This document shows, piece after piece, positions 18,907 to 48,594 of a stretch of DNA of 56,325 nucleotides. The notes beneath the pieces were generated by a model, which was not told the DNA's origin, made no database searches, and saw only the letters and a list, made by a program, of their open reading frames with translations. A program made the position numbers and the translations under genes. The first letter of the stretch is position 1; the number at the start of each line of letters is the position of its first letter. The stretch is from a virus, in IMG/VR virus record IMGVR_UViG_3300042868_007474, positions 1 to 56,325 of that record, one strand, 5' to 3'.

Positions 18907-18941
18907 TTGACGAAAATAAATCTGCATCTAAACTCAGATTT
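18907..18941 (+). promoter_or_regulatory. promoter with overlapping operator at head of gene array
   Basis: TTGACG at 18907-18912, 16-nt spacer, TAAACT at 18929-18934. The inverted repeat AAATCTG / CAGATTT (18918-18924 and 18935-18941) brackets the -10 box and would let a repressor block it. Confidence 0.7.
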
Positions 18942-18978
18942 ATCTCGTCTCGGAGCGGGGAAAGTCTACCTTCCTCAT

Positions 18979-19104
18979 ATGACCGCAACGCTCCTCGCCC
19001 TCGCCCTCGCTTACGCCCTCGCCCTCGTTTGGCTTCACCGCAAACTCCGCACCACTCCCGCCCTTACGGGTCTCCTCTCCGAAATCCGTGCCGAGAACCG
19101 CTAA
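18979..19104 (+). CDS. 41-residue membrane protein, unknown
   Basis: Starts at the ATG 44 nt after the -10 box. Residues 4-21 (TLLALALAYALALVWLHR) form one transmembrane helix followed by a basic segment, so the N-terminus is probably outside. First gene of the array; no terminator before the next gene, so the two likely share a transcript. Confidence 0.65.
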   Translation: MTATLLALALAYALALVWLHRKLRTTPALTGLLSEIRAENR

Positions 19105-19141
19105 CACTTTCCCAACCCAAACCCAACCCAACCCAACGCAT

Positions 19142-19324
19142 ATGTCCCCCGCCCTCCTCGCCTCCCTCGCCAACCTCGCCAACCTTGAGGCAAAGCACCC
19201 CAAGGTCGCCCTCGCCGTCCGAGTGGAAAACTCCCACCTCGCCCCCCGTGCCAACGCCTCCGAGGAGGTCGTCAAGGCTTGGGTCAAGTTCCTCACCCTC
19301 GAAATCCGCAACCTCGCCCGCTAA
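19142..19324 (+). CDS. 60-residue helical protein, family A
   Basis: The ATG follows a 35-nt leader made of CCCAAC repeats. Residues 14-45 (KHPKVALAVRVENSHLAPRANASEE) match the protein at 23892-24074 closely (KHPKEATAIRLRNHLLAPKANAEE), so these two are paralogues. Helical and charged; function unknown. No own promoter, so it is read from the upstream promoter. Confidence 0.7.
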   Translation: MSPALLASLANLANLEAKHPKVALAVRVENSHLAPRANASEEVVKAWVKFLTLEIRNLAR

Positions 19325-19380
19325 ACCGACCGCCCCCGCAAGGGGGCGACCCTCCCACCCTCCAAACCGACCTTTCCAAA

Positions 19381-19629
19381 ATGACCGCCTCCCAAATCAT
19401 CCCCGCTTGGACTTTCCTCGCCGACCTCTCGGACGGCGACACCCTCACCCTCCGAGGCGTTGCCGTCACCCTCTCCCCTGCGACCCGCCTCCCGCTCGCC
19501 CTCGCCCTCGCCCGCAACCTCGGACTCCGCAAGGGTGCGGTCGTCACCCGAGCCCTCCGCTCGGACGGCGACATGACCCGCTCCGCCCTCCGCACCGACC
19601 CGAGCAAGGTCAAGTTCAAGGGCGAGTGA
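19381..19629 (+). CDS. 82-residue protein, unknown
   Basis: Starts at the ATG 56 nt after the previous stop; between them is a CCCCCGCAAGGGGG hairpin without T-run followed by CCACCCTCCAAA, an arrangement also seen before the gene at 25334. The product is beta-rich at the N-terminus (TLTLRGVAVTL) and basic at the end (SALRTDPSKVKFKGE). Very GC-rich (CTC, GCC, CGC codons). Confidence 0.65.
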   Translation: MTASQIIPAWTFLADLSDGDTLTLRGVAVTLSPATRLPLALALARNLGLRKGAVVTRALRSDGDMTRSALRTDPSKVKFKGE

Positions 19630-19730
19630 GCCCGAGCGGGCGACCGAGCGAGCCGAGGCGACCGACCTCGGCCTTCGGCTCTCCGCACCTAGCAAGCGGA
19701 GCGAGCCCCGTGCATAGGACTGTGCGTGGT

Positions 19731-19742
19731 GAACGCCCGTTC
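19731..19742. repeat. GAAC-N4-GTTC palindrome
   Basis: GAACGCCCGTTC, flanked by T and A. One of seven such sites in the array; the core matches the Gram-positive type of LexA box. Confidence 0.6.
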
Positions 19743-19871
19743 ACGCCCACCCCCGCCGACCCGACCCGAGGCGAGGGCGTAGCCCGAGCCCGACCCGTGA
19801 CCCCGAAAAACCGACCCCCTGTTTTTCCAGACCACTCCCAGCCGACCCCCTGCATAGGATTGCAGGACGGT

Positions 19872-19883
19872 GAACGCCTGTTC
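19872..19883. repeat. GAAC-N4-GTTC palindrome
   Basis: GAACGCCTGTTC, preceded by a TGCATAGGA string as at the 19731 copy. Confidence 0.6.
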
Positions 19884-20078
19884 ACTACGCTCCTCCCGCT
19901 CGGACGGCTCTGGAAGCCCGCCCTCTGGCGACCCGTGGCTAACCTCTGGCAAGCCACGCAAGGGCTCTGGCGACCCTCTGGCGACCTCTGGCGACCTGTC
20001 CCTGCCTCACCCTCGGACGGCGTAAACGCCCCGCCCAGCGGGGCTTAAAACTATTTTGAAAATAAAACAAAAATGTCC

Positions 20079-20106
20079 TTGTGTGTTTCGGCGGTCTCTG
20101 ATTGTG
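20079..20106 (+). promoter_or_regulatory. array promoter
   Basis: TTGTGT at 20079-20084, 16-nt spacer, ATTGTG at 20101-20106 (or GATTGT one base earlier), with an A/T-rich stretch upstream. The leader before the ATG is A/C-rich. Confidence 0.6.
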
Positions 20107-20144
20107 TGTCGGTGTTCCCACTAACAACTAACAAAAATAAAAAT

Positions 20145-26092: not shown

Positions 26093-26368
26093 CTCCGTTA
26101 TTTCAGCCCTCCGAGACGATGGCTATCGAGAAAGCCACGGGGGTCTGCTTGCCCTCTGGCTTGGCATCTGGCGGGCTTTGGCTACGGAGACGGGTCAATG
26201 GTCGGGCTTGGCTACGCAAGCCCTCTACGGGGCTTTAAATCGTGCGGAGATTGGACGGCCTTAACCTCCGCAAATCTGCGTAGATTGCACAGACCTAGCA
26301 AACGCACCGCCCGCTCCGCTCCGCTGGTTGCTAGGTGGCTGGTTCGCAAAAGATTTTAAAAATAGTTC
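26093..26368. other. non-coding stretch with CTAGGT sites
   Basis: No supported gene. Contains CGGAGA strings, two CTAGG/CCTAG sites in opposite orientation (about 26292 and 26331) and a run of CCGCTCCGCT. Weak ORFs here lack promoter and codon signals. Confidence 0.5.
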
Positions 26369-26396
26369 TCGCAATTTTCGCAATCCCTGTCATAGT
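26369..26396 (+). promoter_or_regulatory. promoter of tRNA-like gene
   Basis: TTTTAAAAATAGTTC, then TCGCAA at 26369-26374, 16-nt spacer, CATAGT at 26391-26396. Transcription would start about 20 nt before the tRNA-like 5' end. Confidence 0.75.
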
Positions 26397-26422: not shown

Positions 26423-26528
26423 GGAGACGGGACGGGTGTCCTGCTGGAAAGCCCGCAAGGGCGGGGGGCTTAACAGCCCTTCGGGTGAAATCCCAAGGTA
26501 GAGGGTTCGACTCCCTCCGTCTCCTCCA
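26423..26528 (+). tRNA. tRNA-like RNA, isotype unassigned
   Basis: 106 nt. The acceptor GGAGACG (26423-26429) pairs with CGTCTCC (26518-26524), followed by discriminator T and encoded CCA. The T arm GAGGG TTCGACT CCCTC is canonical. The interior is enlarged: CGGG/CCCG or GGAC/GTCC could be the D arm, AAGGGC/GCCCTT an anticodon stem with a 13-nt loop containing CTTAAC, and GGG TGAAAT CCC a variable arm. No clean 7-nt anticodon loop exists. Acceptor and type-II size recall tRNA-Ser, -Leu or -Sec; a degenerate tRNA or a tRNA mimic are alternatives. It has its own promoter and lies between two protein units. Confidence 0.6.
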
Positions 26529-26725: not shown

Positions 26726-26867
26726 GGCACACGCCCCCGAGGTCGGGGGCTTCTTGCTACCCAAGACCTACGGAACTTAATGGCAGATGCCAATCATAAA
26801 ATAATTAAAATAGTTCTCGACTTATTCCTGCCCCGTGGCATAGTCATAGATGCACCAACCAAAACAT

Positions 26868-27071
26868 ATGAACCGCACCGAAAAAATCGAATCCATCCTC
26901 ACCCACATCTCTTACTCCGTCTCACAGGCGAAGGCATCGAAGAAGGAGGGTCTCCGCAACGCCGAGCGGTCTTACCTTCACGACATCTCCGACCTCGCCC
27001 TTGAACTGTCCCGCCTCACGGCAATCGAGTGGAGCAAGGCAAGCAACGCCGAGACTGTCACCAAGGAGTGA
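26868..27071 (+). CDS. 67-residue helical protein, unknown
   Basis: MNRTEKIESILTHISYSVSQ. An in-frame ATG six codons upstream, 5 nt after the -10 (TCGACT-N16-CATAGT), would add MHQPKH; the internal ATG fits the usual A/C leader CACCAACCAAAACAT. Mostly helical. Followed by a CCCCC GAGA GGGGG hairpin. Confidence 0.7.
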   Translation: MNRTEKIESILTHISYSVSQAKASKKEGLRNAERSYLHDISDLALELSRLTAIEWSKASNAETVTKE

Positions 27072-27547: not shown

Positions 27548-27663
27548 ACAACAGCCCCCTCGGTGGGGGCTTTCTTGTGACCCGTTTGCTAGGTCGCATG
27601 GTCGCCGAAAATATTTAAAATAGTTGTTGCATTTTCCGACCCCTGTGCTATTGTGATGGAGTT

Positions 27664-27858
27664 ATGACCAACACCGACCCAGAAGAATACACCCAAGACG
27701 ACTACATCCAAGACTGCATTGACGAGTCCGAGCGGGCTTGGTCTCGCTGTGGGCGAGACGAGGACACCGAGGAGGACGAGGACTCTGGCGAGGAGTCCTG
27801 CGAGGACGAGGAGGAGGACGATGACGGCTCGTATTGTCGCACGACTCGGATGTGCTAA
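27664..27858 (+). CDS. 64-residue very acidic protein
   Basis: Nearly half of the residues are Asp or Glu (ESERAWSRCGRDEDTEEDED and onward), ending CRTTRMC with several Cys. Promoter TTGCAT-N16-TATTGT, start 9 nt after the -10. Such charge could mimic DNA, as in antirestriction or nuclease inhibitors, but no motif proves it. Confidence 0.7.
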   Translation: MTNTDPEEYTQDDYIQDCIDESERAWSRCGRDEDTEEDEDSGEESCEDEEEDDDGSYCRTTRMC

Positions 27859-39526: not shown

Positions 39527-39695
39527 GGATGCGGATAGCCACCGAATGGCCGAGGTCAGAGACCTTGTGCTATTCGTTATCCGAGCCAAAGATAAATTGG
39601 CTGGGCAACCCGAGCCAGCCCGCTCGGAGAACCTTGCCCGTATCAAGGAAGCACAGATGAGGCTTGAAATTATAAAGTCCCATATGGGGCTGTAA
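39513..39695 (+). CDS. 60-residue helical protein, unknown
   Basis: MSKVEDADSHRMAEVRDLVLFV... starts inside the end of the previous gene. A GGGGCT GTA AGCCCC hairpin overlaps its stop codon, a possible attenuator or terminator without T-run. Coupled with the previous gene. Confidence 0.66.
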   Translation: MSKVEDADSHRMAEVRDLVLFVIRAKDKLAGQPEPARSENLARIKEAQMRLEIIKSHMGL

Positions 39696-39719
39696 GCCCC
39701 ATTGACATAAGACAATTAT

Positions 39720-39923
39720 ATGGATAAGTATATTAAAACGGCTTACGATGCGGCACTCTCGGCGGGGACTCCACTTCAAAAAGAAGCGTGTGCAAAGTTT
39801 AAGGAAGTTATGCTTGAGGCAGGTGGCCCAAAAGAGTTCCAAGAATGGTCTGACGAAAAGGTTATGGACTTCGCAATAGACCTTATACTAAAAACCAAGA
39901 TTAGACAGCACATAATTGATTGA
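39720..39923 (+). CDS. 67-residue helical protein, unknown
   Basis: MDKYIKTAYDAALSAGTPLQ, followed by more helices. A TTGACA lies 21 nt upstream but its spaced -10 falls inside the gene, so the promoter is doubtful and it may be read from the preceding gene. AT-rich codon use differs from neighbours (GAT, AAA), hinting at separate origin. Confidence 0.65.
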   Translation: MDKYIKTAYDAALSAGTPLQKEACAKFKEVMLEAGGPKEFQEWSDEKVMDFAIDLILKTKIRQHIID

Positions 39924-40009
39924 TAGGTATTTATATGACGGCATTCGGTCATTAAAATAGTTTAAGATAAACTTGCATTTGGTTGCAGGGTGTGCATACT
40001 GTATCTCGT

Positions 40010-40375
40010 ATGAAACACACCACCAAGAAAGCCATCCTCATTAACGCCAAGACCAACACCGTCAGTTTCGTGGAGGTCGGTGAATACACCGACATTTACA
40101 AGCACTGCGGTTATCAGACCTTTACCTGCGTGGGTCTCCCGCAGGAGAAGGAAACCCTCTATGTCGATGACGAGGGTCTTATCAATGGCACGGACTACGG
40201 CTTTACCATCGAGGGCTACGCCGACCCCCTTATGGGCAACGGACTCATTCTCGGGACTCGTTCCAACGGGGACAGCCGAGACACCGACCTTACGGTTGAG
40301 GAAGTTTGTAAAATGGTTCGCATTCTTCGCCCAACGGCTTTCGGCTTCATTTCGATGAAGCCCACGGCTGGATAA
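40010..40375 (+). CDS. DUF3846-like protein
   Basis: 121 residues. KKAILINAKTNTVSFVEVGEYTDIYKHCG, then ETLYVDDEGLINGTDYGF, EGYADPLMGNGLILGT. The D-D-E-G-L turn and the PLxGNGLxxG segment are typical of DUF3846 proteins, small phage proteins of unknown function. Promoter TTGCAT-N16-CATACT with 9 nt to the ATG. Basic N-terminus, beta-rich core. Confidence 0.75.
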   Translation: MKHTTKKAILINAKTNTVSFVEVGEYTDIYKHCGYQTFTCVGLPQEKETLYVDDEGLINGTDYGFTIEGYADPLMGNGLILGTRSNGDSRDTDLTVEEVCKMVRILRPTAFGFISMKPTAG

Positions 40376-40390
40376 TTGGTTAAAATCTTC

Positions 40391-40418
40391 TTGACATTAC
40401 TCACACTATTCGCATACT
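40391..40418 (+). promoter_or_regulatory. strong class-II promoter
   Basis: TTGACA at 40391-40396, 16-nt spacer, CATACT at 40413-40418. Confidence 0.85.
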
Positions 40419-40428
40419 TATTAACACT

Positions 40429-40761
40429 ATGGACTACCAGATTTACGAAGTTGTAATTCGCTACCTTGACACCCCAGACGAAGAACCCCACGCCGTCCTT
40501 GTGTCGGTCGGGGAAGACCAGCCCGAGGAGGGTGGCGAGGATGACGAGGCTTGTTTTTTCCATTTCTACCCGTTTGAGTGGGAAGACCTTTGCAAGACCA
40601 TTAAGGAGGGTTTCCGCTATGATGTAGACGGCGAGTTCCGAGTTGAGAACCACGGGGACGAGTATGTTGAAGACCTTGCCAATGAGCCAGACGAAGACCC
40701 AGAGCCAATGGGCGATGAGGTCGAAGGCGAGACCGAGCAAGAACCAGAACAGGGTGCTTGA
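40429..40761 (+). CDS. 110-residue acidic protein, unknown
   Basis: Beta-rich front (MDYQIYEVVIRYLDTPDEEPHA), acidic EEGGEDDE turn, FYPFEWEDLCKTI, then a strongly acidic tail (NEPDEDPEPMGDEVEGETEQ). Start 10 nt after CATACT. The tail could be a DNA mimic; no motif found. Ends the plus-strand block before the RNA region. Confidence 0.72.
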   Translation: MDYQIYEVVIRYLDTPDEEPHAVLVSVGEDQPEEGGEDDEACFFHFYPFEWEDLCKTIKEGFRYDVDGEFRVENHGDEYVEDLANEPDEDPEPMGDEVEGETEQEPEQGA

Positions 40762-40805
40762 CGGCTCTGCCGCTTGTTAGGTATCTTGCAGTAACTTAAA
40801 CAACT

Positions 40806-40843
40806 GAAAGACCCCCCACACGAAACACCGTGTGGAGGGTCAG
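40806..40843 (-). terminator. terminator of RNA-1
   Basis: Minus-strand hairpin GACCCTCCACAC GGTGTTTC GTGTGGGGGGTC followed by TTTC. Very strong stem (10-11 bp); it also may stop plus-strand read-through. Confidence 0.8.
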
Positions 40844-41137
40844 TTGTTATGTATGAACCAACGCTAAATGAAGGCTAACAGGGATAGTTCCAGCGACAAC
40901 AATAACATTCCGTGCCTTGCAACCAACAACAACAACGCTTGGGGCTCTTACGATGCTCCCCACTTCCCTGTTAGCACAAATTAATCGGAGATTTTTCGAT
41001 AGTCCTTTTCACCCTGCTCTGGTTAGACCAATCGAGGGTGTCGGCTCACCGCTGGTAGTCGGTGGCAGTCCTTACGGATACTGCAAGGGGGCGGGCCTCA
41101 CGGCTTGTCGCATCTCCAAAGTGTTTCAATCAACGAT
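40806..41137 (-). ncRNA. candidate structured RNA-1 (about 330 nt)
   Basis: A minus-strand promoter (TTGCAT 41166-41171, 16-nt spacer, CATACT 41144-41149) would start RNA near 41137, ending at the hairpin 40806-40843. No ORF longer than about 14 codons begins near the 5' end. Potential helices: GCC GTGA GGC, CACCG ... CGGTG, CACCCT ... AGGGTG enclosing TGGT CTA ACCA, ATCG ... CGAT, and an 11-bp long-range helix GCTAACAGGGA (40965-40975) with TCCCTGTTAGC (40874-40884). Its first residues resemble RNA-2. No known class was recognised (not tmRNA, RNase P or group I intron by eye). Confidence 0.62.
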
Positions 41138-41143
41138 ACATAC

Positions 41144-41171
41144 AGTATGCATAACCTTTCGGATAATGCAA
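41144..41171 (-). promoter_or_regulatory. promoter of RNA-1
   Basis: TTGCAT, 16-nt spacer, CATACT then GTATGTATC on the minus strand, matching the array class-II form although all neighbouring genes are on plus. Confidence 0.8.
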
Positions 41172-41179
41172 GAAGAAAG

Positions 41180-41373
41180 TTGAATGTCTTGTGCCTTTGC
41201 AGATGGGGGAAGTTCTCCGTATTCCCACCCGCTTTGTCCGCACAAGCATCTTGGGTTTGTAGTCGGAGCGTTCCGCTCCCGCTGTCTCTTCCCCCGCTTT
41301 GGACACGGGGTGATAGCCATTGGCAACCAGCGAGGTTTCTACAAACTTGCACAAAGTGATTTCAATTAACAAT
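41180..41373 (-). ncRNA. candidate structured RNA-2 (about 190 nt)
   Basis: Promoter at 41380-41407 (minus). The transcript would begin near 41373 and share its start (GTTRATTGAAA-CACTTTG) with RNA-1. Nested pairing: CTTTGT with ACAAAG, GTTTGTAG with CTACAAAC, and internal hairpins CCCCG/CGGGG, GGAGCG GAA CGCTCC and GGGAA/TTCCC. The 66-codon ORF on this strand crosses the RNA-1 promoter and does not look like a protein. No terminator is visible before the RNA-1 promoter, so read-through into RNA-1 is possible. A rod-like fold recalls 6S RNA, but no diagnostic feature confirms it. Confidence 0.58.
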
Positions 41374-41379
41374 AAATAC

Positions 41380-41407
41380 AGTATGCATACCTCCGAAAGA
41401 AATGCAA
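41380..41407 (-). promoter_or_regulatory. promoter of RNA-2
   Basis: TTGCAT at 41402-41407, 16-nt spacer, CATACT at 41380-41385 on the minus strand. Confidence 0.8.
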
Positions 41408-41504
41408 GCACCATTTTAACATTCATTTGCTAGGTCGCTATATGATTGAAAATAGTTGAATAAACATCTTGAAAAAAATCTAAAACCTGTAATACTGTAT
41501 CTCT

Positions 41505-41693
41505 ATGACACTCGCTCAATACCAGCAAGGAATGAAACGACTCGCCGAAATCCGCAACAGCCTTACCACGGCTCGGCAGGAACTCGCCTCCGAGAAGAAC
41601 TACGACCTGCGTGAAATGCATCAAGCGGTTATCAATGCCCTTATGGCAGAAATGCAGGAAACCGAAACCTTAATGAACGGACTTCAAAAATAA
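41505..41693 (+). CDS. 62-residue helical protein, unknown
   Basis: MTLAQYQQGMKRLAEIRNSL; coiled-coil type helices ending ETETLMNGLQK. Promoter TTGAAA-N16-AATACT, ATG 9 nt after it. Unknown role. Confidence 0.72.
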   Translation: MTLAQYQQGMKRLAEIRNSLTTARQELASEKNYDLREMHQAVINALMAEMQETETLMNGLQK

Positions 41694-41757
41694 TTCATTT
41701 TCATCTTTACATTAAATCAGATTTGTGCATACTGTATCTTCTAACCCAAACAACCAA

Positions 41758-42045
41758 ATGACCACACTCAAAACCGTCTCCATCTACAACACCATCGACA
41801 CGATGACCGCCCGCAAGCCCTCTTGTTGGGGGGATATCCCCGCCGTGGCTGTCGCTCACGAACTGAAATCCATTCTGTTCGGTCGCCTCCCCGTGCTGGA
41901 AATCGAGTCCGCAGAATACCATCCCCTCGATGACATTGAAGGTGGTGTGCCGAACCAGCGTTTTATGCTGAACTACGGCGAGAAGACTTACTATGTGAAC
42001 TCCGAGGGCTATAACTATTGCCGATACATTTGCGAAATTGTTTGA
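41758..42045 (+). CDS. 95-residue protein, unknown
   Basis: MTTLKTVSIYNTIDTMTARKPS, beta-rich with Cys/Tyr end (YNYCRYICEIV). Promoter TTTACA-N16-CATACT; A/C leader (CTAACCCAAACAACCAA). No family. Confidence 0.73.
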   Translation: MTTLKTVSIYNTIDTMTARKPSCWGDIPAVAVAHELKSILFGRLPVLEIESAEYHPLDDIEGGVPNQRFMLNYGEKTYYVNSEGYNYCRYICEIV

Positions 42046-42092
42046 CTTTCCAACCCAAATAACCATACTAACTAAATCCAACCAACACTACT

Positions 42093-42359
42093 ATGAGCAA
42101 TATGTCTTACTGCCGTTTCGAAAATACCGTCTCCGACTTGGAGGACTGCGTTGAGTCGTGGAGCGATGGTGTTTCGTCCAAGGACGAAGCCCGAGCCCGC
42201 CAGCGACTTGTCGAGGTCGCCGAGGAAGTCCTCTCCCTCTACCGCTCTGACAGGGAGATGGTGGACAGCCTTGAACTCAATGAGGAGGGCAAGTCTTACG
42301 AGGCTGACGATGACGACACGGAGGACGAGGATAACGAGTCCTCCTCGGACTCCGAGTAA
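42093..42359 (+). CDS. MSNMSYCRF-family protein
   Basis: 88 residues starting MSNMSYCRFENTVSDLEDCVESW. This N-terminal signature is common in phage proteins of unknown function (SYCRFxNTxxDLxDC). The acidic helical rest ends in an Asp/Glu/Ser tail (DDDDTEDEDNESSSDSE). Promoter TTGACT-N16-CATACT with an A/C-rich 26-nt leader. Terminator CCCC TCAC GGGG plus T4 at 42365-42387. Confidence 0.78.
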   Translation: MSNMSYCRFENTVSDLEDCVESWSDGVSSKDEARARQRLVEVAEEVLSLYRSDREMVDSLELNEEGKSYEADDDDTEDEDNESSSDSE

Positions 42360-42439
42360 GGTTTAGCCCCTCACGGGGCTTTTCCTTTGGTTTGGTTGTT
42401 AGGTATCTAACAGACCCCAAAGTTGCCCCCACGGCGACC

Positions 42440-42465
42440 CATTTGGAATATTGTAGCACATTCGC
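42440..42465. promoter_or_regulatory. intergenic element II, copy 7
   Basis: CATTTGGAATATTGTAGCACATTC, then GTAAAGCAAAAAG. Confidence 0.6.
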
Positions 42466-42532
42466 AAGCCGTTGTAAAGCAAAAAGATAAGAGTTTATTC
42501 TTTGATTGTTTTACGAAAAGATAACTTTGTGC

Positions 42533-42560
42533 TTGCGGAAACTTAAATCGTATGCATACT
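42533..42560 (+). promoter_or_regulatory. promoter of DUF932-like gene
   Basis: TTGCGG at 42533-42538, 16-nt spacer, CATACT at 42555-42560; leader of about 50 nt, A/C-rich. Confidence 0.75.
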
Positions 42561-42614
42561 TGTAAGAGTCCAATCAAGGACAACCAACCAAAACTAAACC
42601 AAACCAAAATACAT

Positions 42615-43490
42615 ATGACCACGAACCTCACCACCACCACCGCCTCGGAAGCCATTGAGCGTCAGACTGAAAAGTTTGACTACACGGTTTCCCAAGTCCC
42701 GTTCCACCTCCCGAACGGCTCGCAGACCCGTTTTCTCGCTAATGTGCGGGATGACAACGGCGAAGTCCTCGGGTGCGTCTCCGACCGCTACGAAGTCCTC
42801 CAAAACTCCGATATGCTCGGGGCTTCCGAAGACCTCTTCAAGGCCGAGGGCTTCTCTAACTTCAAGCGTAAGACCGTTTGCACGAACGGCGGGGCTCGCA
42901 TCCGAGCCATTTATGACTTCCCCGACCACGGCTTCAAACTGTCGAACGGGAACGACCTCACCTTCCGCTTGAAGGTTCAGAACTCCTTTGACGGCTCGCT
43001 CCGTGCCTCGTTCCAAGTCGGTCTCGTTCGCCTCGTTTGCACGAACGGCCTTGCCCTCCCCGTTGCGGCTGTTGGTATGTCCCGCAAGCACACCCAGCAC
43101 CTCGACCCGAACGGTCTCCGTGAGGCGTTCGCCCGCTCCATTAACGCCTTCAAGGAGTCCGCTCCCCTCTTCAATCGGATGATTGAGACCCGCTTGACGC
43201 AGGAGGAGGGCAACAGCATCCTGCTGAACTTCGAAAAGTCCAAGGTTATGAGCGAGCGGATGCGTGAGGGCATACAAGCGGTTTGGGAGCGTCCGACTTA
43301 CGCCGAGGACAGCACCCGCAACCTGTTCAACCTCTACAACGCCACGACCCAGCACCTTACCCATTCGGTTGAGGGCAAGCGGTTCGAACTTGCCGAGCGT
43401 GTGAACACGGGAGTCCTCAACTCCATCTCCAAGGCGGTGAAGCGAAACAACCTCGCCTCGCTGATGGTTGCCAACCTCGGGGATAACTAA
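42615..43490 (+). CDS. DUF932-like phage/plasmid protein
   Basis: 291 residues, the largest array gene. RFLANVRDDNGEVLGCVSDRYEVLQN near the front, KRKTVCTNGGARIRAIYDFPD, RASFQVGLVRLVCTNGLALP and an AERVNTGVLNSISKAVKRN end agree with DUF932 (phage/plasmid-like) proteins. The family is common on mobile DNA; the function is unknown, possibly DNA-associated. ATG preferred after the ACCAAACCAAAATACAT leader; an in-frame start in the promoter is not used. A long GC-rich hairpin follows the stop. Confidence 0.78.
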   Translation: MTTNLTTTTASEAIERQTEKFDYTVSQVPFHLPNGSQTRFLANVRDDNGEVLGCVSDRYEVLQNSDMLGASEDLFKAEGFSNFKRKTVCTNGGARIRAIYDFPDHGFKLSNGNDLTFRLKVQNSFDGSLRASFQVGLVRLVCTNGLALPVAAVGMSRKHTQHLDPNGLREAFARSINAFKESAPLFNRMIETRLTQEEGNSILLNFEKSKVMSERMREGIQAVWERPTYAEDSTRNLFNLYNATTQHLTHSVEGKRFELAERVNTGVLNSISKAVKRNNLASLMVANLGDN

Positions 43491-43586
43491 TCCCCCGAGC
43501 GGGCGGGTCGAACAGGGTGGGGGCTAACGCCCCCGCCCTTTCTTTGTTTGCAAGCATTGACAAACCTGCTATGCTGTCCCCCTCAT

Positions 43587-43922
43587 ATGGTATCCAAAAA
43601 AGATTATTTTAAAGTTGACCTTTTCCCCGATGGTATGCATTGTCCAAAATGCAGGGGAGTGCATTTCCACCCCAAGGCAACGGTTTTACCAAACCTAGTA
43701 TCCGTAGTGCCAGACCCAAAGGGTAAGGACGGGAAAGTTAGCCTGTGGGTGGCTCGGTCTGAGTGCCTAACAACAGGGTGCAACGGCTTTGTGGATTGGA
43801 CATTCCATCCCGACTACTGCAACGGAGACCGCCTTGGAAACCCTTATAGAGCCATTGTAGAGTGGGGTTCTAACCCACTTGGGCTGGAAGCGTTCAAGGA
43901 CTTCCCTCGGAGCAATAGTTAA
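43587..43922 (+). CDS. 111-residue Cys-pair protein
   Basis: CPKCRGVHFHP and SECLTTGCNGFVDW: two Cys pairs (C-x-x-C, C-x4-C) suggest a zinc ribbon with a conserved aromatic core. The start at 43587 lies after a CCCTCAT leader; -35 TTGCAA, -10 TATGCT at 16 nt. Function unknown. Confidence 0.74.
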   Translation: MVSKKDYFKVDLFPDGMHCPKCRGVHFHPKATVLPNLVSVVPDPKGKDGKVSLWVARSECLTTGCNGFVDWTFHPDYCNGDRLGNPYRAIVEWGSNPLGLEAFKDFPRSNS

Positions 43923-43977
43923 GTTTTTTAGATTTGATGCTTGTATTTCTCAGAGGTTCGTGCATACTGTATCTACT

Positions 43978-44145
43978 ATGAAACACGAAATGGAATACAT
44001 CGCAACCATCCAAGTCCTCTCTGGCTCTATGGCTGGACAGATGCTTGAAATCGAAACGCTGGACAAGTGGGCTATTGGCTCTCACCACCACATCGCCGAG
44101 CAGACCTTTGTCGTCCTCGGCCTTGAAGAAAATCCGCTGGAATGA
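43978..44145 (+). CDS. 55-residue protein, unknown
   Basis: MKHEMEYIATIQVLSGSMAGQ, a compact beta-rich protein ending VVLGLEENPLE. Promoter TTGTAT-N16-CATACT, ATG 9 nt after. Unknown. Confidence 0.72.
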   Translation: MKHEMEYIATIQVLSGSMAGQMLEIETLDKWAIGSHHHIAEQTFVVLGLEENPLE

Positions 44146-44203
44146 AAATAAGACTTGTAATCTAAACCAAAATTTGCATACTGTATCTTCTCCAACCAAT
44201 ACC

Positions 44204-44449
44204 ATGAAAAACACTAACTACAAAATCCAGAACGACACCCTTGATAAGATTAAGCCCGCCCTTGATAAGGCAAAGATTAAGTGGGTGCTTGTCTTTGACG
44301 AGGATGTGCTTGACCGCCTTGACGGCGACCCCCGCCTTGCAAAACTCACGCCCGAAATCATGGAGTCCATCAAGGACGACACCGTTGATGCCCTTATGGA
44401 AGCGTGGGCTGATTGCATCGACTCTGCCATTGACAACAACATCCGATAA
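44204..44449 (+). CDS. 81-residue protein, family E
   Basis: MKNTNYKIQNDTLDKI; the stretch WVLVFDEDVLDRL ... MESIKDDTVDALMEAWADCI is related to genes at 45464 and 48349 (shared hydrophobic-acidic strand, then an I-K-x-x-V-x-D-A-L helix). Acidic. The promoter of the next gene (TTGACA) is embedded in its last codons. Unknown. Confidence 0.74.
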   Translation: MKNTNYKIQNDTLDKIKPALDKAKIKWVLVFDEDVLDRLDGDPRLAKLTPEIMESIKDDTVDALMEAWADCIDSAIDNNIR

Positions 44450-44457
44450 AGCATAAT
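44430..44457 (+). promoter_or_regulatory. promoter inside the end of gene 44204-44449
   Basis: TTGACA at 44430-44435, 16-nt spacer, CATAAT at 44452-44457. It drives 44467-44850; the -35 lies within the previous coding sequence. Confidence 0.82.
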
Positions 44458-44466
44458 ACTACTACT

Positions 44467-44850
44467 ATGGGACTCGACCAATACGCTTACTCGGTTAGCA
44501 AGGCAGACCGACCCCTGCTTGACTCGCAGGAATACTATGACGGCGAAGCCGTCATTGAGTCCCAAGAGGAACTTGCTTATTGGAGAAAACACGCCGACCT
44601 TAACGGATGGATGACCAACCTCTACCACAGCAAGGGTGGAGAAGGGAGTTTTAATGGAGAAATTCTTGAGTTAAATGAGGACGACCTCAACTCCCTGCAA
44701 GAAGCCGTCAAGGAAGGTCTTGAGACTGCTACGGGGTTTTTCTGGGGTGTGTCTGACGAGCGACACGACAACGAGACCGTGGCTTTCATCAAGAAGGCAC
44801 TACGAGAGGTGAAGAAGGGTAATGTAGTTTATTATTGTTGCTCTTGGTAA
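44467..44850 (+). CDS. conserved phage protein (MGLDQYAY family)
   Basis: 127 residues: MGLDQYAYSVSK, then YWRKHADLNGWMTNLY, LNEDDLNSLQEAV and GFFWGVSDERHDNE ... FIKKALREVKKGNVVYYCCSW. This N-terminus with a Trp-Arg-Lys-His motif and aromatic end is widely conserved in phages; the function is unknown. ATG 9 nt after CATAAT. A GCCCC/GGGGC terminator with T-run lies at 44854-44876. Confidence 0.78.
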   Translation: MGLDQYAYSVSKADRPLLDSQEYYDGEAVIESQEELAYWRKHADLNGWMTNLYHSKGGEGSFNGEILELNEDDLNSLQEAVKEGLETATGFFWGVSDERHDNETVAFIKKALREVKKGNVVYYCCSW

Positions 44851-44967
44851 AACAATGCCCCGCAGGTGCGGGGCTTCTGTTTGCTCTGGTTGTTAGGTAT
44901 GTATATGATTGAAAGAAATCATAAAATCTTCTTGCAATTTTTATAAACTTATGAATACTGTATGTCT

Positions 44968-45270
44968 ATGACTAAACCCAAGAAAGCCACCAAGTCCGTT
45001 GCCTGTCCCCACCTCGCTGTCGCTTATGAAGGCGGTGGCAATTGGGGTTGGGCATACTACAACACCGCTCAGAAGGCCGTAGAGGTCGCCGAATGGATTA
45101 AGGCGGGGAATAACACCAAGTTCGCTTGCAAGGGTCGTGTGGAGGCTGACAGCGACAAGGGAACGGTCATTAAGGACGGCTCGACCCTCTGGTGCATCCA
45201 CTTTCACTATGACAACACCAATCGCCCTGCATACATCCAGAGCGTTCCAAATATTCGCACTTTGTGGTAA
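44968..45270 (+). CDS. 100-residue protein, unknown
   Basis: MTKPKKATKSVACPHLAVAYEG; beta-rich (FACKGRVEADSDKG; STLWCIHFHYDN) ending IRTLW. Promoter TTGCAA-N16-AATACT; an in-frame ATG two codons upstream is possible. Unknown role. Confidence 0.72.
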   Translation: MTKPKKATKSVACPHLAVAYEGGGNWGWAYYNTAQKAVEVAEWIKAGNNTKFACKGRVEADSDKGTVIKDGSTLWCIHFHYDNTNRPAYIQSVPNIRTLW

Positions 45271-45311
45271 TAAATTCTTTACAAGCCCAACCACTTGTGC
45301 ATACTGTATCT

Positions 45312-45425
45312 ATGACTAACAAGAATACCAAGCGAGCCAGCGGTGGCTCTTTCTGGAAGGTCGAAAGCAAAGCCGACCTCCTTAAGCGACCTGCAAAAAA
45401 GTCTAAAAAAGTTCTTGCAAAATAA
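45312..45425 (+). CDS. 37-residue basic peptide
   Basis: MTNKNTKRASGGSFWKVESK ... KKSKKVLAK. Very Lys-rich. ATG 9 nt after CATACT (TTTACA-N16-CATACT). The next promoter (TTGCAA 45415) overlaps its last codons. Possibly binds nucleic acid. Confidence 0.66.
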   Translation: MTNKNTKRASGGSFWKVESKADLLKRPAKKSKKVLAK

Positions 45426-45442
45426 ACCAACTTCCACATACT
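45415..45442 (+). promoter_or_regulatory. promoter inside end of gene 45312-45425
   Basis: TTGCAA at 45415-45420, 16-nt spacer, CATACT at 45437-45442. Confidence 0.8.
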
Positions 45443-45463
45443 AATCAATCCACCACCAATACT

Positions 45464-45697
45464 ATGAATACCTCCCCCAAAAACAAAGCCCTCCTCGAAA
45501 TGTCCCGCCTTGCGGCTCGGCACGGCATCCTCTACCTCGTCATTGAAGACGAACTGATTGAGACTTACGCCGAAGACGCTGAACTCAAACTTGACTCCGT
45601 GACTATGATGGAGATTAAGGAAGCCGTCCTTGATGCCCTCCAGCAGGATGTTGAAGGACACATTGAGACCGCCGTAGATGATATGGTCGGTAACTAA
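45464..45697 (+). CDS. 77-residue protein, family E
   Basis: MNTSPKNKALLEMSRLAARHG, then ILYLVIEDELIETYAED and MMEIKEAVLDALQQDVEGHI. Paralogue of 44204-44449 and, more weakly, 48349-48591. Acidic; unknown function. Confidence 0.73.
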   Translation: MNTSPKNKALLEMSRLAARHGILYLVIEDELIETYAEDAELKLDSVTMMEIKEAVLDALQQDVEGHIETAVDDMVGN

Positions 45698-45723
45698 TTC
45701 TAACCCAAACCACAAATACAAAA

Positions 45724-45933
45724 ATGAAGCAATACCTCATCACAAAGACTATCACCATCTCGTTTGAATGCGAGGCTAAGAATGAAAAGGACGCTATCAA
45801 GCAGTTCAATTCTGACTTTGAAGATATGTTTAACAATACCGACTCTCAGTTGGACGAAGACCAGCCCGAGAATGTCTATGTAGCCAAGGAGAATGGGGAA
45901 TATGTCCCTGTTGCCGAAGCCAAGGATGCTTGA
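45724..45933 (+). CDS. 69-residue protein, family F
   Basis: MKQYLITKTITISFECEAKNEKD followed by an acidic end. A related pattern (I-x-I/L-x-x-x-C, helix with A/E-K-E-A) occurs at 46050-46271 and 47350-47571. No own promoter visible; 26 nt after the previous stop, so probably co-transcribed. CCCCC TCAC GGGGG terminator at 45939-45962. Confidence 0.72.
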   Translation: MKQYLITKTITISFECEAKNEKDAIKQFNSDFEDMFNNTDSQLDEDQPENVYVAKENGEYVPVAEAKDA

Positions 45934-46049
45934 ACAGAACGCCCCCTCACGGGGGCTTCTTCTTGGAATGATTGTTAGGCACTTATATGATTAAAGAATT
46001 TCATAAAATGTCCTTGCAATTTGTCCGACTTCATACATACTATCAATCT

Positions 46050-46271
46050 ATGACCACTACCAAAAAGAAAGCCAAGAAGCCCGTCCTTAAAACATTCATC
46101 GTATCCGAGCAAATCTTCCTTAATTGGGAGTGCAAGGCTACTTCCGCAAAAGAAGCCCGTGAGATGTATGAATTCTACATCGCTGACGATGTTCAACTTC
46201 AAGAACTCTTGAAGGAAGCGTTAGAGAACAAGTGGGATGCTGGTGTCAATGTGGAGGAAGTCAAGGAATGA
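46050..46271 (+). CDS. 73-residue protein, family F
   Basis: MTTTKKKAKKPVLKTFIVSEQIFLNWECKAT, then a helix (AKEAREMYEFYIADDVQLQELL). TTGCAA-N16-CATACT and 8 nt to the ATG. Its stop overlaps the next start (ATGA). Family F member; function unknown. Confidence 0.72.
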   Translation: MTTTKKKAKKPVLKTFIVSEQIFLNWECKATSAKEAREMYEFYIADDVQLQELLKEALENKWDAGVNVEEVKE

Positions 46272-46447
46272 AAGTCTACATTGCCTTCCTCTGGGGCAAC
46301 GGTAGCCCATACATTGAAGCCAAGTTGGAGAATGGGATGAAAGTCCCATTCCGAGACTTGACTACTTGGAACGCTAAGGCCAAGAAGCGAGTCAAGGAAC
46401 ACCTTGAAAGTGTCTACGGCTATAAAGAAGTTCACTTTATTACTTGA
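46268..46447 (+). CDS. 59-residue basic protein, unknown
   Basis: MKVYIAFLWGNGSPYIEAKLE; starts in an ATGA overlap with the preceding stop, so it is translationally coupled. Lys/Glu-rich end (KAKKRVKEHLESVYGYKEV). Unknown. Confidence 0.7.
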   Translation: MKVYIAFLWGNGSPYIEAKLENGMKVPFRDLTTWNAKAKKRVKEHLESVYGYKEVHFIT

Positions 46448-46477
46448 CCATTAACAACAAACCTGCATACTGACTTT

Positions 46478-46771
46478 ATGGAACACATCATTGCAAAAAT
46501 TATGAAAATGAAGCGAGAAGACCGAGTGGCTCTCGCCCACGGCCTCCTTATGGAACTTGAAAAAGCAGAGGACATTACCTGCTGGAACTTCTGGGAGCGT
46601 CAGACTGTTAAGGAAATTGCCCTTGAAAACATCAATGGCAAGATTTCCGAAGCCGAACTGACTGGCCTCATGGGTCGTCTCAACAAGGAGTGGGATAGCC
46701 TTGCCCAACACGATTGGGAAAAGTTCTCCGACAACCTTAACAAGCATCTTAAACAAATGCGAATTAAGTAA
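46478..46771 (+). CDS. 97-residue helical protein, unknown
   Basis: MEHIIAKIMKMKREDRVALAHG, then helical segments (DWEKFSDNLNKHLKQMRIK). Promoter TTGACC-N16-CATACT with 6 nt to the ATG. No family recognised. Confidence 0.73.
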   Translation: MEHIIAKIMKMKREDRVALAHGLLMELEKAEDITCWNFWERQTVKEIALENINGKISEAELTGLMGRLNKEWDSLAQHDWEKFSDNLNKHLKQMRIK

Positions 46772-46968
46772 TGAACAACCCAATCAAGGGCAATCGAGCA
46801 AATCCAAGCGAACCAGTAAATGTTCGCCGTTTTGCCGTAAGCAGATATAAAGTATTAATTAATGAAGCAGTTGAAATGCGGAAGCAGGACAAGAAGCGAT
46901 GGGAAGTCTTGTTCTCTATGAACAAATGGCAACCACAAGATGGCACAACGCAAACCAAGAAACCATAA
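46771..46968 (+). CDS. 65-residue basic protein, unknown
   Basis: Starts at an ATG overlapping the previous stop (TAATG). MNNPIKGNRANPSEPVNVRRF; basic with a helix (LINEAVEMRKQDKKRWEVLF). Co-translated group with neighbours. Unknown. Confidence 0.7.
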   Translation: MNNPIKGNRANPSEPVNVRRFAVSRYKVLINEAVEMRKQDKKRWEVLFSMNKWQPQDGTTQTKKP

Positions 46969-47155
46969 GATAGACCCAGCCAAGGTCGAAGAGGCGGCTC
47001 GGAGACTTGGACGCAGGGTGCTTGAACTAATGCTAGATGGTCTGGCTGACGATGAACTCGCAAGGGCATACGATGGTCTCCGAGATGCCTTGGTAGGTAT
47101 TCCAGACTACTCTTATACTCCACCAAAAAAGAAAGCCCCCACCCCGAAGGGGTGA
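46940..47155 (+). CDS. 71-residue basic protein, unknown
   Basis: MAQRKPRNHKIDPAKVEEAARRL followed by an acidic helix and a PPKKKAPTPKG tail. It overlaps the previous gene by 29 nt in another frame. Arg/Lys-rich; might bind nucleic acid. Ends at a hairpin shared with the opposite-strand genes. Confidence 0.68.
   Translation: MAQRKPRNHKIDPAKVEEAARRLGRRVLELMLDGLADDELARAYDGLRDALVGIPDYSYTPPKKKAPTPKG
47132..47154 (-). terminator. terminator of minus-strand pocket
   Basis: Minus-strand CACCCC TTC GGGGTG hairpin, followed by GGGGCTTTCTTTTTT. It serves the 47172 gene; on plus the T-run is weak. Confidence 0.72.
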
Positions 47156-47171
47156 GAGCGTCTTTAAGTTT

Positions 47172-47345
47172 TTACTTGCAATCGTATTTTTCTGCCCGCT
47201 CTTTGGCGATTTCCTCAATCTGATACCAGATTTTAGCCATTGTATCGTCATCATACTTGGCCTTGTCGTATTGACCTTGACCCCACGACCCCTTTGCCCA
47301 ATCAAGGGCGTGTAAGGCCGTGTTTCTGATTTCCTCGTTGGTCAT
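47172..47345 (-). CDS. 57-residue protein, unknown
   Basis: MTNEEIRNTALHALDWAKGSW, from the ATG just after the stop of the next upstream gene; the longer N-terminal frame overlaps that gene. Helical with a Trp and acidic stretch (DDDTMAKIWYQIEEIAKERAEK). Coupled to 47350-47571. Confidence 0.7.
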   Translation of the reverse strand: MTNEEIRNTALHALDWAKGSWGQGQYDKAKYDDDTMAKIWYQIEEIAKERAEKYDCK

Positions 47346-47349
47346 CGGT

Positions 47350-47571
47350 TTAGTATTCGTGGGTTTCGTTGCCCTCGGCATCCTGCGAGTAGCAGGTGAA
47401 GTCAGAGGAGTCAGCAATCATCTTGCCGAACTTGACATTCTCCACGAACGCATTAAGATACTTCTCTTGGGCTTCCTCGAAAGAGTTAGCCACGATGCCT
47501 CGGGATTGGATGGTGATGGTTTCGTTGAAGAAGTAAGTCTTCTTCGTGTTGGTGGTGTTTTCGTTGGTCAT
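47350..47571 (-). CDS. 73-residue protein, family F
   Basis: MTNENTTNTKKTYFFNETITI; related to 45724 and 46050 proteins (strand then E-E-A helix). Promoter TTGCAC 47614-47619, 16-nt spacer, CATACT 47592-47597, then an A/C leader CTCTCACCCAAACACC. Although on minus, it uses the array promoter type. Confidence 0.74.
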   Translation of the reverse strand: MTNENTTNTKKTYFFNETITIQSRGIVANSFEEAQEKYLNAFVENVKFGKMIADSSDFTCYSQDAEGNETHEY

Positions 47572-47632
47572 GGTGTTTGGGTGAGAGATACAGTATGTAT
47601 GGTTTTAGATTTTGTGCAAGACATTTGTCTGA

Positions 47633-47938
47633 TTATTTCAGATAAATCGTCTTCACTCGTTCGTAGTTTCCATTGATGCTGGTAGTAATGTCGAAAATCC
47701 TGTTATCAATAGAGCGGACTTCGAACTCTCCGCTTGCCATCTGTTTAAGGGCTTTGATAATCTTGCCTTCGTGTTCGTCAATTTCAAAGTATTCGCCCTT
47801 GCAACCGCAACGGCAGTTGTTGCCCTTGCCGATGTAGAGGTTATCCACCTTGTCAAGGGTGATGACAATCTCACCATCCCCATCAGACGAGGTGTGCTTG
47901 ATTTTGTATTCAGTTCCGAGGTTCATAGTGTTGGTCAT
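47633..47938 (-). CDS. 101-residue Cys-rich protein
   Basis: MTNTMNLGTEYKIKHTSSDG; contains CRCGCKGEYFEIDEHEGKII, with a C-x-C-x-C cluster and acidic turn. Promoter TTGTTG-N16-CATACT. Start 8 nt after the -10, so nearly leaderless. Metal binding plausible. Unknown family. Confidence 0.73.
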   Translation of the reverse strand: MTNTMNLGTEYKIKHTSSDGDGEIVITLDKVDNLYIGKGNNCRCGCKGEYFEIDEHEGKIIKALKQMASGEFEVRSIDNRIFDITTSINGNYERVKTIYLK

Positions 47939-47984
47939 AGAAATACAGTATGCACAGATTTTATAAAACAACAAGCATTATTTC

Positions 47985-48233
47985 TTACTTTCTTTGTCCA
48001 TTGGAGTCAAAGAGAACTTCAAAGGAAAGGTCTTCTACTTCCTTAATAGCCTCGGCAAGGGCAATGCGAGCCTCTTCGGCTCGCTTGCCAGAGCGTTCAA
48101 ACTCATAGTCAAAGGAAAGGGAAGGGTTGGTGAGTTGGAACATCACGCCGTGCTGTGCCTCACGAAATTGAGTCAATTTCCAGATAAGGTTTTTGCTGGC
48201 CTTGGCGAGTTCGGTTGCTTTATTGTTTTTCAT
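47985..48233 (-). CDS. 82-residue helical protein, unknown
   Basis: MKNNKATELAKASKNLIWKL; Arg/Glu-rich helices (EFERSGKRAEEARIALAEA). Promoter TTGAAA-N16-CATACT, 8 nt to the ATG. The upstream in-frame extension lies in the promoter. Unknown. Confidence 0.72.
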   Translation of the reverse strand: MKNNKATELAKASKNLIWKLTQFREAQHGVMFQLTNPSLSFDYEFERSGKRAEEARIALAEAIKEVEDLSFEVLFDSNGQRK

Positions 48234-48303
48234 AGAGATACAGTATGCACGGACTTGCACTTTTTTCAAGATAAAAGATTTAATATTTTGACGGCAGATG
48301 TGC

Positions 48304-48331
48304 TTGACATTTCTTGTAAAACCTGCACAAT
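48304..48331 (+). promoter_or_regulatory. strong promoter, start of last plus unit pair
   Basis: TTGACA at 48304-48309, 16-nt spacer, CACAAT at 48326-48331. Confidence 0.78.
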
Positions 48332-48348
48332 ACACCGTAAGCAATACT

Positions 48349-48591
48349 ATGGACAAAAAACAAACTCAAAAAGAAGCGGTCAAGCAAATTAAAAAAATCT
48401 GTAAAGAAACGGGGCTGGGGTGCTTCCTACTAACGGATGACATGACCTCGCACATACAGACCGAAAATGGGACGGCAATTTCAGAATCCCAGCGTGAAAA
48501 ACTGAAGGAGCGACTTATTGATTCTTTTAATGATATGTATTCTGACTATCTTGACGCACTTTCGCTTGACTTAGAGACAGAAGAGGAGTAG
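48349..48591 (+). CDS. 80-residue acidic protein, family E
   Basis: MDKKQTQKEAVKQIKKICKETG, then LGCFLLTDDMTSHI and an acidic helix (RLIDSFNDMYSDYLDALSLD). Resembles 44204 and 45464 products. The next promoter's TTGACT lies within its last codons. Confidence 0.72.
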   Translation: MDKKQTQKEAVKQIKKICKETGLGCFLLTDDMTSHIQTENGTAISESQREKLKERLIDSFNDMYSDYLDALSLDLETEEE

Positions 48592-48594
48592 ACT
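48566..48594 (+). promoter_or_regulatory. promoter inside end of gene 48349-48591
   Basis: TTGACT at 48566-48571, 17-nt spacer, TAGACT at 48589-48594; ATG 9 nt later. Confidence 0.7.

Follow-up and report, generated by a model that had tools for sequence, protein, structure and literature searches.

Clusters of small genes behind promoters of host type are known from several tailed phages. In T4-type phages, promoter-early stem-loops (PeSLs) join a terminator stem-loop to an early promoter of host type; they stand between small accessory genes where gene content is shuffled (Arbiol 2010; Comeau 2014, via PMC4503421). The SPO1 host takeover module and the early genes of T4 and the kayviruses are likewise clustered, small and mostly uncharacterised, and have many strong host sigma-70 promoters (PMC6873191, PMC2988021, PMC7698491); T4 early promoters carry UP elements (PMC2988021). 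RNA-seq revealed 58 early promoters and 42 terminators in kayvirus 515A1 (PMC7698491). Here we analysed the promoters of an array of small genes in a linear tailed-phage record, IMG/VR virus record IMGVR_UViG_3300042868_007474 (the window, which is the whole record of 56,325 bp), and a tetranucleotide, TAGG or its reverse form CCTA (the box), which lies upstream of many of these promoters. The window was compared with its nearest sister phage, G001 (IMGVR_UViG_3300042154_002686, 80,561 bp).

The array appears to work like the PeSL cassettes and the small early genes of SPO1, T4 and the kayviruses, yet it belongs to neither group. As in phage host-takeover modules, the small genes are clustered and have their own promoters. 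As in PeSLs, a stem-loop terminator is joined to the promoter between small genes (21 of 34 box promoters in the window and 30 of 38 in G001), and gene shuffling is present. However, the phage is of a family unrelated to the T4-type phages (lambda-type portal, GpA terminase, a likely Verrucomicrobiota host), and the array differs from PeSLs, as described in the cited account, by its phased TAGG box, its 16-nt spacer combined with CATAnT and its lack of a Shine-Dalgarno sequence. SPO1 has 26 genes in operons and the kayvirus has 35 units per 238 open reading frames (ORFs) in the cited accounts, while the array has 56 scored promoters for its 67 genes that leave enough space upstream, and the phased upstream box. 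No phased upstream box was found for phages in the literature surveyed, the coverage of which did not extend to subscription journals.

18907-48594, + strand: small-gene array (79 genes in 18.9-48.9 kb, median 78 aa; 74 on the + strand and 5 on the - strand)

Separate gene calling thus agrees with a preliminary description of this DNA, which had counted about 80 small genes. Bipartite expectation-maximisation (EM) was run de novo on 75 upstream regions with no motif supplied, and the best solution was taken. The resulting motif was TTCTTGta-N14-ntgCATAcTg, i.e. CTTGnn, a 16-nt spacer and CATAnT. The preliminary description had proposed that such a matrix be compared with shuffled sequence, and the comparison bore it out: 63 sites on the + strand of the array exceeded 10 bits, against a mean of 1.6 and a maximum of 5 in 60 local dinucleotide shuffles (12 sites on the - strand). 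A promoter was present at 58 of the 79 genes above 7 bits (2.3 in shuffled sequence) and at 54 above 9 bits (0.8 in shuffled sequence), so that these 54-58 genes have -35 and -10 hexamers at the 16-18 nt of sigma-70-type promoters, above shuffles. This amounts to about 70% of the units, and the claim that nearly every unit has the promoter was overstated. The spacer had been given as 16 nt, sometimes 15 or 17; of the 55 promoters above 8 bits, 49 have 16 nt and 6 have 17 nt, while 15 nt was absent.

The promoter was also recovered by matrices trained elsewhere. A matrix trained only on G001 scored 46 of the 79 genes above 9 bits (1.4 in shuffled sequence, maximum 6), and a left-half matrix recovered 19 of 38 right-half genes (0.2 in shuffled sequence). 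The right-half matrix recovered just 3 of 41 left-half genes (0.2 in shuffled sequence), a real limit, since the -10 region has become more specialised in the right half, with a longer and more uniform word, GTGCATACTGTATCT. Upstream regions that exceeded 8 bits made up a fraction of 0.64 in the window, 0.48 in G001 and 0-0.24 in 21 other records.

The core of the array promoters is an ordinary sigma-70-type promoter. No phage RNA polymerase was matched by Pfam in 80 array proteins, 19 other window proteins and 48 non-array G001 proteins. Considering both results, transcription of dispersed cassettes by host RNA polymerase is the likeliest arrangement, as the preliminary description had suggested; the common box, however, favours an added regulator over constitutive host transcription alone.

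The spacing of the box was measured from the end of TAGG to the scored -35, for copies 10-70 nt upstream, the -35 positions being fixed without using TAGG. In the window, all 24 spacings fell in three classes (32-34 nt, 14 copies; 44-47 nt, 8; 55-56 nt, 2), and in G001 all 38 did (23-24 nt, 3 copies; 32-35 nt, 33; 44-45 nt, 2). In both phages, TAGG was the most frequent of the 256 tetramers 31-35 nt before the -35. The 14 CCTA spacings of the window were looser (34 nt, 2 copies; 42; 46-48 nt, 7 copies; 56, 59, 61 and 62), and those at 59, 61 and 62 nt each pair with a TAGG that lies 44 or 47 nt before the -35. Examples of the box and of the boxless, compact promoters are:

27553-27571, + strand: terminator hairpin of the preceding gene (box-class example)
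27590-27593, + strand: TAGG box of the 27664 cassette, context GTTTGCTAGGT, 33 nt before the -35
27627-27654, + strand: promoter of the 27664 cassette (TTGCAT, 16 nt, TATTGT), AT-rich UP-like tract directly upstream; gene 27664-27858
37373-37376, + strand: TAGG box at longer spacing, 45 nt before the -35 TTGAAA at 37422; gene 37459-37683
28701-28704, + strand: TAGG box of the longest spacing class, 55 nt before the -35 TTGTGC at 28760; gene 28837-29049
26767-26770, - strand: reverse box CCTA, context ACCTACGGAAC, 46 nt before the -35 TCGACT at 26817; gene 26868-27071
38772-38792, no strand assigned: dyad box ACCTATG-N7-CATAGGT, CCTA 59 nt and TAGG 44 nt before the -35 at 38836
26332-26396, + strand: box (TAGG at 26332) and promoter TCGCAA-16-CATAGT (-35 at 26369, -10 at 26391) before the tRNA-like RNA 26423-26528
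37039-37066, + strand: compact boxless promoter TTGTAT-16-CATACT, 8 nt after the previous gene, -10 continuing as CATACTGTATCT; gene 37076-37336
48242-48269, - strand: compact promoter TTGAAA-16-CATACT(GTATCT) before 47985-48233

After removal of near-identical linkers, 26 off-peak distances phased with the main peak at 10.5-11.5 nt, and none of 20,000 random draws was as good, these distances not being independent and the spacing classes having been noticed before testing. Helical turns are the best reading of the four spacing classes near 23, 34, 45 and 56 nt, not a proof. The centre of TAGG would lie near -60, -70, -81 and -92 if transcription starts 7 nt past the -10. Placement ahead of the -35 in helical-turn steps, as in the box, is what characterises class I activator sites. 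In class I activation by CRP of E. coli, activity has a periodicity of about 10.5 bp and is best at -61.5, -71.5/-72.5 and -81.5/-82.5, with hardly any at -66.5 or -76.5 (PMC6301791); these helix-phased sites near -61, -71 and -82 are akin to the predicted TAGG positions. The CRP site is 22 bp in the cited account, whereas the array word is short and usually single, and its activator is putative.

The flanks of the box were phage-specific (GTTTGCTAGGT in the window and CGGGGTAGGT in G001), also in all four homologue pairs that are boxed in both phages. G001 has two unlike linker families before its box promoters, TAGG-N8-TGCGTAAA and TAGG-N6-AATTGACCGAA. The distance from TAGG to the terminator T-run was mostly variable (7-17 nt). 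Integron-type recombination sites, prompted by the letters GTTAGG, were set aside, as the spacing follows the -35.

Promoter classes were compared in the 67 + strand array genes with at least 30 nt in front, 56 of which have a promoter above 6 bits. With the box class defined by TAGG or CCTA within 66 nt upstream, 34 of these promoters have a box and 22 do not. The median distance from the previous gene to the -35 was 93 nt in the box class and 39 nt in the boxless class. Terminator-like hairpins between the previous gene and the -35 were found in 21 of 34 box and 6 of 22 boxless units of the window (1.6 and 0.4 in shuffled sequence), and at 30 of 38 box promoters and none of 14 others in G001. 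The earlier remark that many units are single genes trailed by a hairpin fits much of the box class and fewer of the other units; the right half is partly operon-like. The left half of the array (to about 34.9 kb) is rich in box-class cassettes and the right half in compact promoters, which follow the previous gene at a short distance and whose -10 often reads CATACT(GTATCT). An AT-rich UP-like tract and the core were retained at unrelated genes in both phages. Matches of the -35 to TTGACA were fewer in the box class of G001 (2.97 vs. 3.93 in boxless promoters, p = 0.008), as expected if box promoters need help.

Outside the promoters the word is avoided. Avoidance was measured by synonymous-codon shuffling of coding DNA for 120 non-palindromic 4-mer pairs in 19 records. 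TAGG/CCTA was the most depleted of all pairs in the window (6 vs. 77 expected) and in G001 (10 vs. 196), and also in G027, G012, G002, G010, G004, G007, G009 and G024; it was not the most depleted in G015, G016, G017, G011, G018, G019, G022, P8625 and the contig of a metagenome-assembled genome (MAG). The avoidance was seen on both strands of coding DNA, so double-stranded DNA is probably the form that is recognised. The window has 46 TAGG and 26 CCTA in total (39 and 24 not wholly within genes) and G001 has 63 and 2 (54 and 0 not wholly within genes). In G001, TAGG between array genes was in excess (52 vs. 33.0 in mononucleotide shuffles, maximum 50). A plain restriction target would hardly persist at dozens of promoters, whereas retention there would be expected of a word whose binding protein harms genes at the wrong place.

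These results are best explained, with a confidence that we place about midway between doubt and acceptance, by a row of separately transcribed single-gene cassettes, read by host polymerase and probably with a TAGG-binding protein. The region would be the accessory part, of host-takeover or anti-defence type, of a tailed Verrucomicrobiota phage of about 79 kb. Each cassette would run from the intrinsic terminator of the gene before it, through a TAGG box on a fixed face of the helix and an AT-rich UP-like tract, to a sigma-70-type core. The start codon would come almost at the site where transcription starts or after an A/C-rich leader that has no Shine-Dalgarno sequence. Host RNA polymerase would transcribe the cassettes, probably early. 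A sequence-specific double-strand DNA-binding protein of the host or the phage would sit on TAGG, about 60, 70, 81 or 92 bp ahead of the transcription start, and, to judge from the spacing, assist the polymerase like a class I activator. The compact promoters, mostly in the right half, boxless and mostly without a terminator, may boost single genes within longer transcripts. Genes are gained and lost between sister phages while the regulatory design is retained. Of these elements, the promoter, the spacing rule, the terminators, the missing Shine-Dalgarno sequence, the scarcity of TAGG in coding DNA and the gene turnover are computed results, and the host polymerase, the activator, the early timing and the function of the products are inferred. 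The phasing of the box ahead of many promoters suggests one common switch for dozens of separate genes. The bolder proposal of a phage-wide regulon, in which the word is purged from coding DNA and kept, with phage-specific flanks, almost only as a helix-phased activator site at 30-40 unrelated cassettes, is tentative, and we lean against it while taking it seriously.

Several results weigh against this explanation. At the thresholds used, 21-25 of the 79 array genes had no promoter. The box -35 hexamers of the window were not weaker than the boxless ones (3.68 vs. 3.82 matches, p = 0.91). Phase coherence in the window alone peaked at 12.5-13 nt (R 0.74) rather than at 10.5-11 nt (0.54-0.61), and the reverse-form sites include off-phase distances (42, 59, 61 and 62 nt). 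TAGG between the array genes of the window was not in excess (36 vs. 35.8 in mononucleotide shuffles); here the place and context of TAGG are unusual, not its plain count. Relatives with no visible boxes also avoid TAGG (1 TAGG and 0 CCTA in 27 kb of G024), so the avoidance may have another cause, and it favours a protein of host origin, or else an older restriction system, over a phage protein.

A mobile promoter-terminator module, inherited as a single piece like the PeSLs of T4-type phages and spread by recombination, could carry the box at its spacing as a passenger that persists by descent, with no regulator involved. This would account for part of the data, and we consider it possible though doubtful. 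The box co-occurs with the terminator (21 of 34 and 30 of 38), the linkers belong to few recurring families, identical leaders GATGGAGTCGAAAGACACC precede unrelated genes, and the gene content of the array is heavily shuffled between collinear flanking core genes. Core gene order is mostly kept between the window and G001, while array gene order is scrambled; 39 of the 79 array genes have a homologue in the array of G001. Paralogy was ruled out as the source of the common design: the 79 window genes formed only 3 homologous pairs and the 81 array genes of G001 only 4, so the array genes are mostly unrelated to one another and the design is not a by-product of gene duplication. A passenger box, however, would not explain the purge of the word from coding DNA, nor spacings that step by about one turn with almost none between, nor a spacing of about 34 nt common to the two unlike linker families of G001, and the box flanks are altered throughout each phage.

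A repressor or road-block site, occupied by a phage repressor in the stretch from terminator to promoter so as to silence or insulate each cassette, is unlikely. The model would be the stoperators of cluster A mycobacteriophages, which have one main orientation and a phage-specific consensus (PMC6550527). Stoperators are sites where the immunity repressor of the phage binds and elongation is blocked. Like these and the 17-bp repeats of cluster O (PMC4351075), the box is a short phage-specific word in many copies, partly intergenic; its flanks differ between phages, it is avoided in coding DNA and it often lies directly behind a terminator. Its orientation is one-sided in G001, with all 54 intergenic words on the + strand, and mixed in the window, with 39 TAGG and 24 CCTA. 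Stoperators, however, need no fixed promoter distance, and none to the -35 is described for them or for the cluster O repeats (17-bp palindromes, within genes too) in the cited accounts, while here the spacing to the -35 is tight and that to the T-run varies. No integrase or repressor was found by Pfam in the scanned proteins, which covered part of the window's set; the double helix-turn-helix protein 55024-55395 is a candidate only. Another repeated phage word, the start-associated sequence of cluster K (GGGATAGGAGCCC, PMC3203893), also stands before many small non-structural genes, and its ATAGG likeness is a matter of chance; in the cited account it lies 3-7 bp before the start codon and contains the Shine-Dalgarno core, whereas the array box lies upstream of the -35 and has no Shine-Dalgarno sequence.

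Mostly ordinary operons, in which the sites are weak internal promoters and a few long transcripts dominate, would be an equally improbable explanation of the array as a whole. The -35 lies just 0-15 nt after the previous gene in 10 of the 22 boxless units, and in kayvirus 515A1 of Staphylococcus 23 potential early promoters left the transcription landscape unchanged (PMC7698491). Against this stand the terminator-like hairpins of the box units and the UP-like tract and core kept at unrelated genes of two phages. Least probable of all is a host restriction-like system directed at TAGG, under which the word would be purged like the 4-bp palindromes and its intergenic copies tolerated or protected: seven such palindromes are missing from 56 kb, TAGG is avoided in relatives with no visible boxes and G001 has its copies almost all on one strand, but 46 TAGG and 26 CCTA in the window and 65 words in G001 persist, mostly intergenic and many at set promoter distances, the retained copies would undo the purge, and the window retains both orientations.

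The palindromes concerned are ACGT, AGCT, CCGG, CGCG, GATC, GCGC and GTAC, with 0 copies each in the window vs. 99-229 expected under a Markov model. None of ten 4-bp palindromes is present in G015, and a near-total loss was also seen in G027 and G001. This looks like very strong restriction-site avoidance.

Translation starts lack a Shine-Dalgarno sequence. Shine-Dalgarno-like words precede 5 of 101 window genes (4% in shuffled sequence) and 13 of 144 G001 genes (6%). Some Verrucomicrobia are described as scarce in Shine-Dalgarno sequences (PMC10783764), and the scarcity is probably a host trait. In the long leaders (20 units), A and C each make up 41% and G makes up 6%. The end of the -10 lies 0-11 nt from the ATG in 33 units; the predicted leaders are therefore of few nucleotides, and many starts would be nearly leaderless. 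Many short leaders (20145-47155) contain ATGTTATGA or ATGGAGTTATGA, a 2-3 codon ORF whose stop overlaps the ATG of the gene; these mini-ORFs, spotted by eye, sit near the predicted transcription start. The tRNA-like RNA at 26423-26528, which has its own box promoter, shows a closed 7-bp acceptor stem, a T arm, a long variable arm and an encoded CCA; it was not called by ARAGORN and scored 25.2 bits with the Rfam tRNA-Sec model, under the cut-off of 47.

Few of the array products could be assigned. Pfam matched four families among 80 array proteins, once each (DUF932, DUF7296, ArdA and DUF3846), PHROGs gave 16 families with one member each, mostly annotated with no function, and PADLOC had no match among the 80 proteins. 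An anti-defence or host-takeover role is a guess from position, size and the one ArdA. Two array proteins, 31807-32334 and 38159-38674, are related (57% identical) and have homologues adjoining the primase in box-less relatives; a related-loci search with 31807-32334 as the query found nothing. The ArdA-like protein and a possible regulator are:

36335-36655, + strand: array-encoded antirestriction protein, ArdA-like; its homologue in G001 is 79% identical
55024-55395, - strand: double helix-turn-helix protein, candidate box-binding factor, two tandem relatives in G001

The latter was the only helix-turn-helix candidate by Pfam among the 19 non-array window proteins and the 80 array proteins. 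It is a candidate regulator that nothing ties to the box, and a fold search with its model (pLDDT 73, pTM 0.42) gave no confident match (best E 0.04), which also counts against the activator proposed above.

Allowing up to 2 mismatches, the -10 word GTGCATACTGTATCT occurs 17 times, where 0.01 would be expected. It is common to right-half and RecT promoters (34930-53332, both strands) and contains the inner palindrome ATACTGTAT. G001 holds one copy of its inner 12 letters, some related G001 promoters read GCATCATGTAT in its place, and the word is nearly absent from relatives. Locus L116 of G027 was rejected as a third phage with this promoter, being the same phage (99.99% identity, window 1-10594). 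The uniform word is possibly a repressor site, i.e. a phage-specific operator overlapping the -10. Two good promoters on the - strand (41138-41171 and 41374-41407) point away from the array. They lie in a stretch (40.98-41.50 kb) in which no gene was called on that strand, and possibly drive unannotated RNAs.

The preliminary description had also placed promoters of the same design before core genes, and all five were present:

6282-6309, - strand: TTGACA-16-CATAGT before 5642-6247
7424-7451, - strand: TTGACA-16-CATAAT before 6317-7417; good sigma-70 consensus, only 1.3 bits with the array matrix
17591-17618, - strand: TTGACA-16-CATAGT before the primase/helicase gene 15540-17573
18496-18523, - strand: TTGACA-16-CATATT before 18099-18476
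53305-53332, - strand: TTGACG-16-CATACT before RecT (52461-53285)

The product of 18099-18476, which had been called SSB-like, had no family match. Core-gene promoters have TTGAC(A/G/T) at the -35 and are mostly boxless: of eight inspected on the - strand, seven had TAGG/CCTA nowhere near, and the one at 18496 has CCTAGG. The view that one design serves all modules is thus correct for the -35/-10 core and the 16-nt spacing, which are general, but not for the TTGACA-like, mostly boxless core genes and the two-class array.

The remainder of the window encodes:

4594-5541, - strand: major capsid protein
7477-8442, - strand: head protease
8448-10148, - strand: portal (lambda-type)
11557-13380, - strand: GpA-type TerL
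13603-14370, - strand: TerS
15540-17573, - strand: primase/helicase
48.97-50.70 kb: ten tRNAs
50.8-53.4 kb: RecE-like exonuclease, RecT and SSB-like protein

G027 (IMGVR_UViG_3300042549_003835) is the same phage as the window (99.99% identity across 10,594 bp, window 1-10594) and extends 22.9 kb further left, which gives a genome of about 79 kb as the sum of the two. Identity between the window and G001 was 86% for TerL, 83% for RecT and 88% for the DUF932 protein. A 124-bp stretch at 56194-56317 is 99% identical to the end of G001, which otherwise is about 75% identical, and the start of G001 is 100% identical to the start of G027 over 115 bp; the assembly probably broke here, within a segment of recent exchange. 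An array next to the primase was absent at 18 of the 19 loci examined in relatives, and three of these 18 had less than 2.5 kb of flank beside the primase; only that of G001 (L107) has one. TerL matches that of Verrucomicrobia phage P8625 (22.7% identity, E 2e-26, the lowest E-value in the best 20 of 211 matches). Its sole GTDB match, by alignment, was a Verrucomicrobiota MAG (42% identity); a search of genome contigs with the single TerL found nothing. The host is likely a member of the Verrucomicrobiota.

Verrucomicrobiota are a phylum with few genetic parts, and the array offers promoters and a Shine-Dalgarno-free leader design for it. It also provides a search rule for uncultivated phages: TAGG 33-34 nt (plus or minus about one turn) before CTTGnn-16-CATAnT. 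Small accessory phage genes are mostly of no assigned role and are thought to act against the host. If the regulon proposal is true, one factor would switch dozens of such genes together, and a newly acquired gene would join them by landing behind a box. Commonly controlled but independent cassettes would explain how genes are gained and lost with no broken expression.

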